Assembly: GCA_030062745.1 (NCBI GenBank) | Contig: CP099839.1 | Span: 2,795,001 to 2,859,000, forward strand | DNA: 64,000 bases | Direction of reading: 5' to 3' | Source of the DNA: Capitulum mitella | Taxonomy: Eukaryota > Arthropoda > Thecostraca > Pollicipedomorpha > Pollicipedidae | Program-made: the position numbers and the translations under genes | The notes under the pieces: model-generated | Told to the model about the DNA's origin: nothing | What the model saw: the letters and a program-made list of their open reading frames with translations, nothing else | Database searches by the model: none | Shown here: positions 22,801 to 58,500 of the stretch, one piece after another | Layout of the letters: each line of letters starts with the position of its first letter | Numbering within the stretch: the stretch's first letter is position 1

Positions 22801-25800
22801 CTGTCGCGTCTGTTTGGTCTGCCGGCCCGTCCGGCGGCGCCTGACCGGCCGCGCTCGTTCCAGCGACGCAACAAGTACCAGGACACGCGGCTGAAGGCGC
22901 TGCAGGCGCGCAACGACTTCCTGCTCAGCCTGGAGGCGGCCAACGCGGCCGTGCACCGCTACTTCGCCGACGATCTCTCCGACATCATGGACTGCATGGA
23001 CGTGGGCTTCCACACGGGCCTGGCGCGCGCCCTGCTGATGACCATCAGCGCGCAGGAGTGCGTCATCGCCGGCCAGAAGGCCGGCTGCGACGGCCTCCAC
23101 AAGACCATCAGCGGCCTCGACTCGCGGCTGGACAAGCAGAAGTTCATCGAGGCCAACAACAACCCGTTCATGCTGCCCAAGAAGTTCGAGTTCGCCCCGC
23201 ACCGGGGTGACCAGGTGAGCACCAGGGCGGAGTGCGGATTGGTCGTGTGGGAAGGTGGCTGGCAGGAGCCGTTCTCGTCCGTCACCGGGGAGGGGAAGGG
23301 TGCGTCTGTGGCCTGTGGCCAGTGTTGCTGATAACTGGATTGGATTTTCCGCTGATTGGCTCCGCAAAGGTCGGCGGAACGGCGTGGGTCCGTCCGATGT
23401 GACGTATGGGAAGGTCAGAACCGGTTAACTCAAACTTCGGGCCCACGGCACCCGGATACAGTCTCAAGCGTTGGCAGGTCTTGCACGATACTGACTGGGA
23501 ATCGATTCCACTTGTATCGGCTGATCGGTTAAGCAAAGGGACCATCTTATCGAGAGATATCACCTCGTCGACGCATGTGCAGAACAGACAGTTTTAATGT
23601 CAACTCACCACTCTTCCCGCTCCTCGTGACCCTTGGGCCCGTGATCCCCTTCCTGGCCCCGTGACCGGCGTGTGCCGTGGCCGGCGCGCTGACGCCACCT
23701 CTGACGCCGCGCCCCGCCCCGCAGACGAGTCGGTTCGAGGTCGACCCGGAGATCAAGGAGGAGACCCAGCTGCGTTACGACGCGCTGTGCCGGCGCATCA
23801 CCTCGCTGCGCACCTCCACCGAGGAGGTGTGGAAGACGATGGAGACGGCCGAGCGCTCGCTGGTCGCCATGGTGGCCACGGACGAGGTGGACGTGCGCTC
23901 GCTGTTCCGGCCCGGCGGCGGCTCGCGGCCGTCCGACGCCGCGCTGGCCAAGCTGCGCGCCGACCACCAGGAGACGGAGCAGTTCTACATGGGGGTGAGT
24001 GGAGACGGAACAGTTCTACATGCGGGGGGGGGGGACAGAGGTGGTCTGCATGGAAAAGAGGCTACGCGGGGCTGGCAGAGGCGGATTAATGTTGTGGGGG
24101 TTGAGTGATGTATATGGTTTCAACACAGGAAACAAGCCACATTGCCTTGTTTCCTGTGTTGGAGTAGGACCCGAACCCGAAACGAGCATCCGTGCCCCCG
24201 GACTGCGGAAGTTCATAGTGTGTTTCAACCGCTGTTCTCCCGCGGGCGTGTAGGTTTTCAGTTTGTGTGGCCCATGTCCGCCTGTTTACACAGGCGGTTC
24301 TCCGTCAGATAAACAGCTGTGATCACGCTGGTCGGCCCGGCCGGCCGGTGCCGTTGTCGGGCCGTCGCTAGGAGCGGTCAGTGTGGACGGACGCCGACCC
24401 CGGCCGCGGCTGCGAGCAGAGTTTCGACGCCCGCCGGACGACGCCTGAATGAGCGCGATGACGGCTGCCGGGCCTGATTGATTGATGGCTCGGACGAGCC
24501 GCTCGGATCACTGCCATAGCCGACCACAAAAACGGCCCGCTTTACCGCAGCCCAAACGTGGGACGCGCCGGCGCGGCTCAAACTTGTTCAGGGCCGACGC
24601 GAAAATGGCGAGCCCGGTACAGCTGCCCTTGGGGAGCGTGCATTGTTTTCGTCCAGAATTGCGCGTCATCATCGGCCTTTGTTAGCCTCGTGGATTGTAT
24701 AAAAATAATCAGACTTCATGGCGCTGGACGTGACGAAGCATGGCCCAGTCGAGATTCCCCTCCGCGCCAGCCGCCTGGGGGAACAGGCCACCCCTTCACG
24801 CCGTTCATCGATCTTCGGGCAGTCGTGCCACGCTGGCGTCACGTTCCCGGCTGGGTGCAGCGTCACGGCGTGACGCTCCGGCGGGCTGTTCCTCCGGTCG
24901 GCCGGCTGGCGGCGGTGCCGGCCGAGCGGCCGGTCGGCGGCTGCGGTGTCGCCGACGGCAGGCTGGGCGGCGCGGCCCGCTTCGATTCGATCCAGGGCGT
25001 CGGTCTGGTGCCCCCGCGTCGCCGGAGACCGCTTAGTTCACGCCCGGACCCGGTGGTCCGTCTCGGACTGACCGTCACGTCGTCTTGGCCGGCGCAGGAG
25101 AGAGCGGTTCCGCCACACAGAGCGCGAGACGTCGCCGTCGTTACCACGTTTGCTGGTCATGTTTCCGAGAGCAGCGCCCACAGCAACGTCACCGAGTGCG
25201 TCAGTCCCCGCAAGTCTTGTTGCGAACGCTTTGCGACGGGGAGAACCCGACTTGGCGTGGTTCGCCTGCCCGCTCCCCGCCGGCGAGCTCCGGCGCAGGC
25301 CCGACTGACGACGTCCTCTTTCGCCGCGCAGAAATTCGCCGAGTACATCGGCGAGTCGAACCTGATCGCGCGGCTGCAGGCCAAGTACGAGACGCTGCGC
25401 TCGGGCCTGGGCGAGCACACCACGCCAGCTGAACCGACTCAGCCGCAGCATCTGCGAGAAGCCGCGCCGGAAAACGGATCGGCCGCGCGCCGGCCAGCGG
25501 CCAGCCGCGCCTCTTCGGCGGCAGCCTGGAGGAGTACCTGGAACTGAGCGGCCAGGAGATCCCGCTCATCGTGCGCTCCAGCGTGCGCGTCATCAACCTG
25601 TTCGGCCTGCACCACCAGGGCATCTTCCGCGTCTCCGGCTCGCAGGTGAGCTGCCGCCGCGGTGCGGAGGCGGTGGGCGGTTGGTGGTACGGATGGAGCG
25701 GAATGGTGGGATGGAAGATTTTCGTTTTGTGGTTCCGTTTGTCATGTGGGAAAGTGGCTGGCGTTCAGGTCGGAAGTGTTCGCACGAGGCTTTGCCGCAC

Positions 25801-55500: not shown

Positions 55501-58500
55501 GACGTGGGTATTCACAGATGGGGCAGGTGTCCCCCCAAGACGTGAGTATTCACAGCTGGGACTGGTGTCCCCCAGGTGTGAACATTTACAGCTGGGGCAG
55601 GTGCCCCAGGCGTGAGTATTCACAGCTGGGGCAGGTGCCCCAGGCATGAGTATTTACAGCTGTGGCAGGCGCCCCAGGACGTAAGTAGCTACCACAGGGG
55701 AAAGTGGTGCCTGACCTGAGTACTTACAAACGGACGGGCGCCGCGTGTTCAGAAATGAGAATGATTACCCACCTCGACATGAGTATTGAGAGCTGGGATA
55801 CACGCCTCCTGAAAATGTTATTTCCTGCTCGGCGTCATAGCACATGAGTTCTTTTCGCTGGGGCAGGACTCTCCGACGTAAGTACGTGCAGCACAGACAA
55901 GTGCTTTCTTGGTATTTAGAGCCGAAACATGCAATGCATGACGAGACGAGTTCGACATGACGAGTTCGTAGGGTCACCTGTCACGTCTACTTTCAGGTAG
56001 CCGTCTCTCTCTGTTTAAATCTATCACAGCACAATGTTAAGCCTGCGACAGACGCAGTATCATCGGTCCAGCCTTTCGCAGTCAGCAGCCATCGCAAAAA
56101 GTGCGCCAGAGTAACCAACAGACGCGACCAAATCCACCGCCCAGGGCAACCAGGTCCTTTGTAAGGCTTCGTTTATCTACCCCACCCCAGCAATGTTATT
56201 AACGGCCACTCATTCCTGCCGGCGCAGGCTCTGCGCCCGGCCCCCTTGACGCTCCCTCGGTTCCAGGGCGTGGCGCAGTACACGTTCGGCTACAAGACCG
56301 AGGACCCGGCCGAGGCCACCTACTCGGAACAGAGCGAGCAGCGCAACGGCAACGCCGTCACCGGCTTCTACTCGGTGCTGCTGCCCGACGGCCGGGTCCA
56401 GGTCAGACGCTGGGGCGAGGCGGCCCGGGCCGGCACGGGACAACCGGGGGCCATACGGTGCGTTTAGAGATGGGGTGAGTGCGCGGTTGTAGTAAGTGCC
56501 AGCAGGTCGGACGGAACCAGTACTGATCAGACGGAAACGGAGAGACTGACGCGAAGAACAACTAGTGCGAAAGGGGAGCCACCACCAAAACTTGTCGTCA
56601 GGTAGCGCACGGTTCCCCAATTTCACTCACGTCACTTTTCAAACTCTATAAACGGCAAACTTGTAGTTCTGTCCTCGATACAAGCCAACTAGATCATCCA
56701 TCCCTCATTACTACATACACAACTGTGACTAAGCCTTTCCCTGACCCAGGTCCTCAACCGAATCATGCTGGACCTGTGCCACGCTGACTCCATCTCGCCC
56801 GGTCCCAGGTGGTCAACTACGTGGCGGACGAGGGCGGCTACCGCGCCACGGTGGCGTACCAGACGCCGGACGGCGTGCCGCTGCCGGCGCCGCAGCAGCC
56901 GCCCGGCGCGCCGCCGCCGCCGGCCGCGCCGCGCTCGCCCACGTTCCGGTTCGGCGGCCCGCTGCCGGCGCTGACCGCCGACCTGGGGCCCGGCTTCGGC
57001 GGCGGGCCCGGCTTCGGCGCGCCCGCCAAGCGCGAGGCCGGCGAGGAGTTCGGCCGGCGCACCAGCGGCGGCGGCGGAGAAGAGCGAGGTGAGGTCGTGC
57101 GGGACTGGCGGGACGGTGCCGGCTCACTTCCTCTGAGCAGCGGCGGCGGCGGTGGGAACGGCGGAGGAGGGAGTGACGGCGGCGGAGGAGAAGGCGGTCA
57201 CAGCGGTGGAGGCGGAGCAGCTCATGACTGGAGGGACGGCGCCGGCTCGCTGCCCCTGAGGCGGCGTCAGAGGGCCGCAGCCGCGCAGCCGGCAGGACGT
57301 GCCGCCCCTCTCGACCGCATCCAACAACGGCCGGCCGCCGGCAGTCGGTCCTCATGCCGAGCAGACCCTCCAGATCGGACCCGCCAGCGACAGCGGGTTC
57401 GGCGACGGCTGGACGCCCACAGCCAAGCCCGCGCCTGCGGGCCGTCCGCGGCCCGCGCAGGCCGACGCGGCGGCGGCCGTCGGCTTCCGGGAACCGTCGT
57501 CCGACCCGCCGCCGGGCGTCAACTCCTGGCTGGTGGCCGACAACTCGATCCCGATCCAACAGCGCCCGGACCGTGTCGCCAAACTCGGTCGAGGCCGGCC
57601 GGGCGTGGACGGTGACCTCCGGGGCGTCGCCCGCCCCGAGGAGCTGGGACCAGCCGCCGTCAGACCGTCCGACACCGCCCTCCGACGGCAACGCCATCAC
57701 AGCGTCCCCGCGGCCGGCCGCCGGCGACGCCGCCTGGACGGTGACGGCTCGCTCCGGCCCGGCCGTGGACGGCGCCTGGCGGGTGACGGCCAGCCACGCG
57801 CCGGCCGACGGCGCCTGGACCATGACCGTCCGTCCGCTGGCGGCCGGCGGCGGCGGCGGCGGCGCGGCCGCCTCCGCTGCCGCTGCTGGCGGCGGCCGCG
57901 CTCGGCGGCCGGCCCGGCCCGGCCGCTCAGTTCCGCTCGCGTCCGGGCCGGGCCAGCGGGCGGGCCCGACGCGCGCGCCGGCCGTCACCGCCGCCGCCGT
58001 TCCGCCGCCGGAGGAGCATCGAGGGCCGTCAGAGGCCGCACCTCACGGCCCGACTGCCACTGTCAGGGGCCAGCCGCTCAGTCTGACGGAGTTCCCACAG
58101 CAGCCCGCGCCGGGCCACGCCGCGCCGGACGGATGGTGGTCTCCGCTCAGAATAGCCGCGTAGGTTTCTGGTGAGAGATGTCGCCTTGACTCTCGCATCG
58201 ATATTTATCATGAACATATGAGTCTGGATAGGCGGAAGTAGTGTTCCTTTCCTCTGCGTGACGCTGCGTTTTGTGTGATGTGGCGAGCCGCAGACGTCGG
58301 CCCGGTGGCAGAGTGTCTGCCTCCTTTTTGCGTTCCACGGAAAAGACAATATTTTGTAGGCAAACTGGCACTTTGTTGAGTTTTTCCTATCCTGTTCCAG
58401 GCATACAATAAAGGCATTCACTTGGTGTGAAACTACCCGCATGTCTGGCAATGTCGGTCACTATGAGAAAAGTCCAAGTCACGTCTGATGCGCCCAGCTA

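Follow-up and report, generated by a model that had tools for sequence, protein, structure and literature searches.

Tandem repeats that span 5′ splice sites in an arthropod genome: an apparent counterpart of the amphioxus ‘mirages’

Tandem arrays at exon ends in the window

The stretch analysed here (the window) comprises 64,000 nucleotides of the barnacle Capitulum mitella (contig CP099839.1, positions 2,795,001 to 2,859,000 of the forward strand) and is part of a GC-rich genome of 477 Mb in 16 contigs. Two barnacles are stated to have 16 chromosomes (PMC11331182). It holds genes for srGAP, VPS16, VPS33A and a cuticle protein, in which tandem repeats lie at 5′ splice sites (donors). A previous reading of the sequence alone had placed such arrays at the donors of five exons in these four genes. 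Using Tandem Repeats Finder (TRF), followed by reading of the sequence and alignment of the first copies with the second, we found that four arrays start at the 3′ end of an exon, repeat the donor and extend into the intron. The remaining case, at srGAP exon 7 (the numbers of srGAP exons 7 and 11 are those of the sequence-only reading), is weaker: it is a single duplication, with only one extra 31 bp copy, and does not appear in the TRF list at a score of 30. The features, with their basis in brackets, are the following.

23970..24029, + strand: end of srGAP exon 7 (exon 23725-23994) and its donor, single duplication with a 31 bp unit that includes 19–25 exon nucleotides (reading and copy alignment)
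27484..27779, + strand: srGAP exon 11, whose donor opens a 69 bp array (reading; relatives P0029 and P0030 at 96% and 92% identity)
27762..27991, + strand: srGAP exon 11 array, 69 bp × 3.3, 19–25 exon nucleotides followed by the donor GTGAGC and by intron (TRF and copy alignment)
39096..39221, + strand: VPS16 exon, whose donor GTCAGT opens a 37 bp array (homology)
39192..39359, + strand: VPS16 array, 37 bp × 4.6 degenerate copies, unit of at least 18 exon nucleotides and the donor (TRF and copy alignment)
45790..46046, − strand: penultimate VPS33A exon (alignment with human VPS33A, continuous over the junction)
45446..45791, − strand: VPS33A array, 28–29 bp unit in about 12 copies (29 bp × 12.2 in TRF), the unit opening at the donor GTGAGA (TRF and copy alignment)
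55201..55326, + strand: signal-peptide exon of the cuticle-protein gene (relative P0002)
55305..55687, + strand: cuticle-gene array, 35 bp × 10.8, unit of 22 exon nucleotides and the donor GTGAGT (TRF and copy alignment)

The unit lengths given by the earlier reading (31, 69, 37, 28–29 and 35 bp) are correct, as is its statement that the unit takes in the exon tail in four cases, namely both srGAP exons, VPS16 and the cuticle gene (18–25 nucleotides aligned). The VPS33A unit opens at the donor. In VPS16, 18 nucleotides of exon tail are aligned in the second copy, where the TRF start would give 30; the second copy of VPS33A holds just one or two. The spliced exons of VPS33A align with the human protein, and those of VPS16 with a solved VPS16, and both alignments run uninterrupted over the array junction. 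Since homology runs over both junctions, the first donor joins the next exon in protein terms, and it is presumably also the donor used in RNA. The introns continue well past the arrays.

To weigh these positions against chance, we took the eight minisatellites of the window with a period of 20–120 and a TRF score of at least 100, and 26 donors from an exon finder and from hand reading, backed by homology in part. The finder was self-made and rough: it was first trained partly on repeat-rich stretches, a later model excluded two such loci and its scores are comparative only. It put the end of srGAP exon 11 at 27848, inside the array, and the hand-read end at 27779 was used. Four of the eight arrays hold a donor in their first unit on the correct strand, compared with 0.17 expected, and none of 20,000 random placements reaches four. 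For acceptors the figure is 0/8 (0.18 expected) among the TRF rows retained, although the array at 36095-36417 has a further row that does reach an acceptor. A test independent of the repeat finder gave a similar picture: the 30-mer at the donor recurs at 22/30 or better within the next 400 bases for four of the 26 donors (srGAP exons 7 and 11, VPS16 and the cuticle gene; for one of the 26, the VPS16 GC donor, the position used was wrong by one base), compared with 3% of random positions and 0/26 acceptor 30-mers. VPS33A fails this test with a score of 19.

Three further observations concern the same genes. At 36095-36417 an array with 41/55 bp units takes up the 3′-terminal part of a VPS16 intron as far as the acceptor of the exon at 36416-36541, its unit being free of exon sequence. 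The VPS16 exon that starts at 38881 seems to have a GC donor at 38965 (CAG followed by GCGAGT). Finally, the srGAP exon at 25332-25645 seems to shift its reading frame internally, which suggests small indels, either assembly errors or real ones.

Donor words and array loci across the genome

We counted triples of donor words genome-wide (three copies with gaps of 13–43 bases, both strands) and used the same word reversed as a control. GGTGAGT triples number 747, compared with 311 for the reversed word, and AGGTGAG triples 1719, compared with 285. The CpG-matched acceptor word CCGCAGG shows no excess genome-wide (760 versus 883). A count of 46 versus 257 for TTGCAGG, which might have been taken as a depletion at acceptors, was set aside, as the reversed word has a CpG and TTGCAGG has none. 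Single words behave differently from triples. In the window we counted 10 copies of GGTGAGT and 6 of its reverse TGAGTGG, and in a random sample of 100 kb 7 and 14 (17 versus 20 in sum); for AGGTGAG and GAGTGGA the figures are 13 and 4 in the window and 10 and 16 in the sample (23 versus 20). Single donor words are thus about as common as reversed ones, and the excess sits in arrays, for donors of the GTGAG kind. Such donors make up 14 of the 26 in our set, in which GTAAGT is absent (0/26) and appears to be rare as a donor here. It should be noted that the reversed word TGAGTGG is an imperfect control: when preceded by G it equals GTGAGTGG, and several of its arrays are donor-like, so that the donor excess may be understated.

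We inspected the flanks of all 23 distinct places with GGTGAGT arrays on the contigs C1 and C2 (C2 to 33.7 Mb, among the matches listed). At 15 of them a coding-exon end and its donor lie inside the first unit, as judged by inspection. The places divide as follows (the L numbers are our own locus numbers).

Coding donor in the first unit: L007, L013, L021, L022, L023, L028, L029, L035, L051, L053, L054, L055, L059, L060, L063
No convincing exon: L020, L052, L057, L058, L061, L062 (not a clean tandem array), L064
Array at an acceptor: L056

L056 (G000:C2:3395000-3396700) is a 3′ counterpart: an array of 12 units of 33 bp ends, on the minus strand, at the acceptor of an exon encoding a calponin-homology (CH) domain, and the units inspected close with CAG, which makes the acceptor signal the repeated element.

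Twenty translations were searched against Pfam (those of the 15 donor places and of L052, L056, L057, L058 and L061, leaving L020, L062 and L064 aside). A domain was found at E ≤ 0.01 in eight of the 15 donor places and, among the other five, only at L056. The eight comprise ERM (weak), TSP1, dynein D6, sushi, Dor1, Ion_trans twice and myosin head, the ERM and myosin matches falling below Pfam’s own cut-off; in six of the eight the domain stops within two residues of the exon end. A mechanical exon score, the sum of a coding and an acceptor term with a threshold of 10, is reached at 13 of the 23 array places and at 5 of the 28 GGTGAGT words that occur singly, outside arrays (Fisher P = 0.005). 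These controls come from the random 100 kb (1/7), a dynein region (0/2), the window (4/10) and the flanks of array loci (0/9). The single words of L001–L006 (2/4) were kept out of the 28 because L001 lies in the window; including them gives 7/32 (P = 0.009), and the random, dynein and L001–L006 words alone give 3/13 (P = 0.054). The same arrangement thus recurs elsewhere on both contigs, in unrelated genes, and two donor words are favoured genome-wide. The earlier proposal that position is the only feature that the arrays have in common is likewise supported.

Some of these loci merit a separate mention. The dynein region (C1:27052001-27092000, 40 kb, picked for its donor array) contains no other array with a period of at least 12 and a score of at least 60. 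One array, at G000:C1:4794690-4796792, has 46 AGGTGAG-triple matches spaced at about 45 bp. At L039:5689-6132 a predicted short exon lies between two different minisatellites, one at its donor and one at its acceptor. A dispersed repeat family that starts with GGTAAGTGGTCGT and occurs on nine contigs makes up nine or ten of the 45 GGTAAGT triples.

Origin and fate of the arrays

Among 18 units, only those of the paralogous pair L053/L060 are strongly alike (score 75, compared with 28 for the next pair and a median of 16, in a comparison made without a shuffled control). This speaks against an introner-like or otherwise dispersed repeat family, in line with the sequence-only reading, which had held that the arrays do not form one. 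L053 (on C1) and L060 (on C2) lie in similar ion-channel genes (Ion_trans by Pfam) and carry nearly identical 42 bp arrays at the donor; this array may predate the gene duplication or have come with it. The relatives of srGAP exon 11 (P0029–P0032; 96, 92, 82 and 72% identical) and of VPS33A (P0003; 79% identical) read past the donor without the unit found in the window. The cuticle relative P0002 (85% identical over the exon) reads GQPPSD, then VSTRDEGQPPPD, then VSTRDDG, so that it has a donor repeat of its own in the corresponding position, in which the intron portion differs. The srGAP exon 11 and VPS33A arrays thus look lineage-specific on this protein-level comparison, and the arrays as a whole look young and recurrent, because these relatives are without the srGAP and VPS33A arrays and one has its own repeat at the cuticle donor.

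We consider it likely that the arrays are minisatellites of the type described in amphioxus as ‘mirages’, here in an arthropod, which are spliced out with the intron and favour 5′ splice sites over other positions. A short stretch of about 20–70 bp would be duplicated in tandem over the exon end and the 5′ splice site, and the repeat would then expand into the intron, probably through slippage or unequal exchange. Of the copies, the leftmost would be the true exon end, its first donor being joined to the next exon, and the later copies, most of them with a donor of their own, would be removed with the intron. The extra donors would be under no clear selection for their retention, and the arrays would be young and turn over between species. 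The preference for donors could stem from the fact that such duplications leave the mRNA unchanged, and perhaps also from their arising there more often.

Several points weigh against this reading. The window had been flagged for having such arrays, which is why the search was extended outside it. In the random sample (100 kb, 10 of 100 stretches drawn, with the array size limits of the window test) only one of 18 arrays, L039:5689-5928, starts at a predicted donor, and most minisatellites there therefore sit away from donors; the relevant comparison, for its part, sets the excess at donors against the very small share of the sequence that donors take up. At 8 of the 23 GGTGAGT places no donor exon is found on reading the flanks. 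The third donor word, GGTAAGT, shows no excess of triples genome-wide (45 versus 47 reversed). Triple matches are not independent, and long arrays inflate the counts; the C1 array with 46 matches is a case in point among the 1719 for AGGTGAG. By distinct array the GGTGAGT excess shrinks: there are 23 (C1, and C2 to 33.7 Mb, among the matches listed), and the reversed word has 14 (on C1 and on C2 throughout), with one array common to both. The split is 13 versus 7 on C1, which has the shared one, and 10 (to 33.7 Mb, among the matches listed) versus 7 on C2. AGGTGAG occurs at 15 distinct places among the matches listed, in the first 21.1 Mb of C1, and its reversed control is a count of matches, not of arrays. 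Finally, the relatives are protein readings in one frame, which a repeat of another unit length could escape.

What, then, produces the excess at donors? One explanation is that the 5′ splice site is a mutational hotspot, at which some process linked to transcription or to the exon/intron boundary, such as R-loops or nicking behind the polymerase, generates short tandem duplications. It would account for the donor density in the window, for the excess of donor words over reversed words of the same composition, for the higher proportion of coding donors at arrays than at single words and for the repeat of a relative at the same cuticle-gene donor; the lack of a GGTAAGT excess, the single case in the random sample and the flagging of the window speak against it. 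We regard this hotspot as plausible but unproven, and as somewhat less likely than not. In its widest form, which we put forward with the same reserve, the 5′ splice site or the transcribed boundary would itself seed donor minisatellites genome-wide, sometimes at the same junction in relatives, while the spliceosome would keep to the first donor.

Tolerance by itself is also possible, if somewhat doubtful: duplications would arise evenly, those that cross a donor would survive as the first donor still works and those that cross an acceptor or lie in an exon would be removed. The absence of excess for CCGCAGG and of acceptors among the window arrays in the kept TRF rows agrees with this, as does the consideration that copied acceptors would create new upstream AGs. 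Both donor columns and unit lengths, moreover, look neutral: only 8 of 20 unit lengths are divisible by three, and there is therefore no sign of selection for in-frame use. However, tolerance predicts at most the density found in free intronic or intergenic DNA, whereas the window has four arrays at donors where 0.17 are expected, and donor-word array matches reach 2.4 and 6 times those of the reversed words genome-wide, although GGTGAGT counted by array gives a much smaller excess. As tolerance alone cannot raise donors above free DNA, duplications would have to originate there more frequently or to confer a benefit, and no clear benefit was found. We therefore favour, without proof, a mixture of tolerance and local mutability as the cause of the excess. 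The earlier reading had offered a targeted process and mere retention as alternatives; the two are not fully separated here, the density figures leaning towards more than tolerance and GGTAAGT showing no excess. Its observation is confirmed and its interpretation partly supported.

Positive selection for extra donors, which might bind more U1 and so aid splicing or suppress premature polyadenylation, is unlikely. GTGAG is kept in many copies. Pooled over 18 arrays, donor columns are identical to the consensus at 95.2% compared with 91.9% for the rest (Wilcoxon P = 0.007, 17 arrays), a result that we dropped as evidence of selection since the choice of 14 arrays by exact donor words favours that very difference. 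The four window arrays, chosen without a donor word, show no consistent extra conservation of donor columns, VPS33A retains GT in only 5 of 11 copies, and the relatives manage without the arrays of srGAP and VPS33A.

Intron gain through tandem copying of an AG–GT segment (the Rogers model), or the use of dual-specific splice sites, would also place splice signals in tandem units, yet it is very improbable here, as the introns extend far past the arrays with no new intron bounded by copies, the exon seems to end at the same position in the relatives, which lack the window unit, and AG precedes GT (AGGT) in only 4 of 18 units. An assembly artefact or chance is just as remote: the apparent frameshifts in the srGAP exon at 25332-25645 do suggest some base errors, but the units are unrelated at many loci, the independent database sequence of a relative has a donor repeat at the same place and the permutation test in the window argues against chance.

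If donors do seed minisatellites genome-wide, the exon/intron boundary would be a hotspot of mutation from which introns turn over rapidly. Such arrays would also serve as natural experiments on how the spliceosome settles on a single donor when many similar ones follow each other; at L029 the series runs to some 45 copies with a donor.

Comparison with known systems

By titles and the openings of abstracts, we found no report of such arrays in an arthropod, and a search joining barnacle, tandem repeat, splice site and intron returned nothing relevant by title. The nearest arthropod case is that of Drosophila, in which novel introns have arisen by sliding or tandem duplication (PMC2891723); it likewise involves a tandem duplication over an intron/exon boundary, with the difference that no new intron is formed here. 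In the human UBC gene, dual-specific splice sites lie in tandem repeats (PMC10809524). This too is a tandem array of splice signals within one gene, but it requires AGGT to serve as both donor and acceptor, a motif found in few of our units.

The sequence-only reading had known of no named class of element that behaves in this way. This does not hold, since boundary repeats in human genes and the mirages of amphioxus had already been described. Human genes in segmental duplications have internal tandem repeats at exon–intron boundaries (PMC2812944), which resemble ours in being minisatellites with units of about 30 bp at exon/intron borders. They differ in that the recent paralogs concerned acquire novel introns or alternative transcripts through them, whereas the genes described here are old and conserved, with exon ends common to their relatives.

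The closest likeness is to the amphioxus mirages, minisatellite-like duplications of intron/exon boundaries in the globin, Adh3, troponin C and PGBD5 genes, with units of 10 to about 160 bp, unstable lengths and regular splicing (PMC3087553, PMC3902484). In both systems units of minisatellite size lie over an exon/intron boundary, splice signals are repeated and the genes affected are unrelated; in both there is turnover, between alleles in amphioxus and between species here. Of 18 arrays examined here, 14 of them picked by donor word, 17 retain GT in half of their copies or more, the exception being VPS33A (5/11). The arrays of the present, arthropod-like genome differ from those of the cephalochordate in that mirages are reported at both boundaries and ours lie mostly at the 5′ splice site, the acceptor-end arrays at 36095-36417 and L056 having units without an exon head. 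The evidence also differs in kind: undisturbed splicing is supported by reverse-transcription PCR in amphioxus, whereas the observation here is of protein homology that continues over the VPS33A and VPS16 junctions, and the present work adds a measured excess of donor words across the genome. With these arrays a phenomenon described in amphioxus would gain an arthropod example, and the origin of mirages becomes testable in species with several sequenced relatives. The arrangement is real and recurrent, and appears to be an arthropod counterpart of the amphioxus mirages with a measured bias towards donors.

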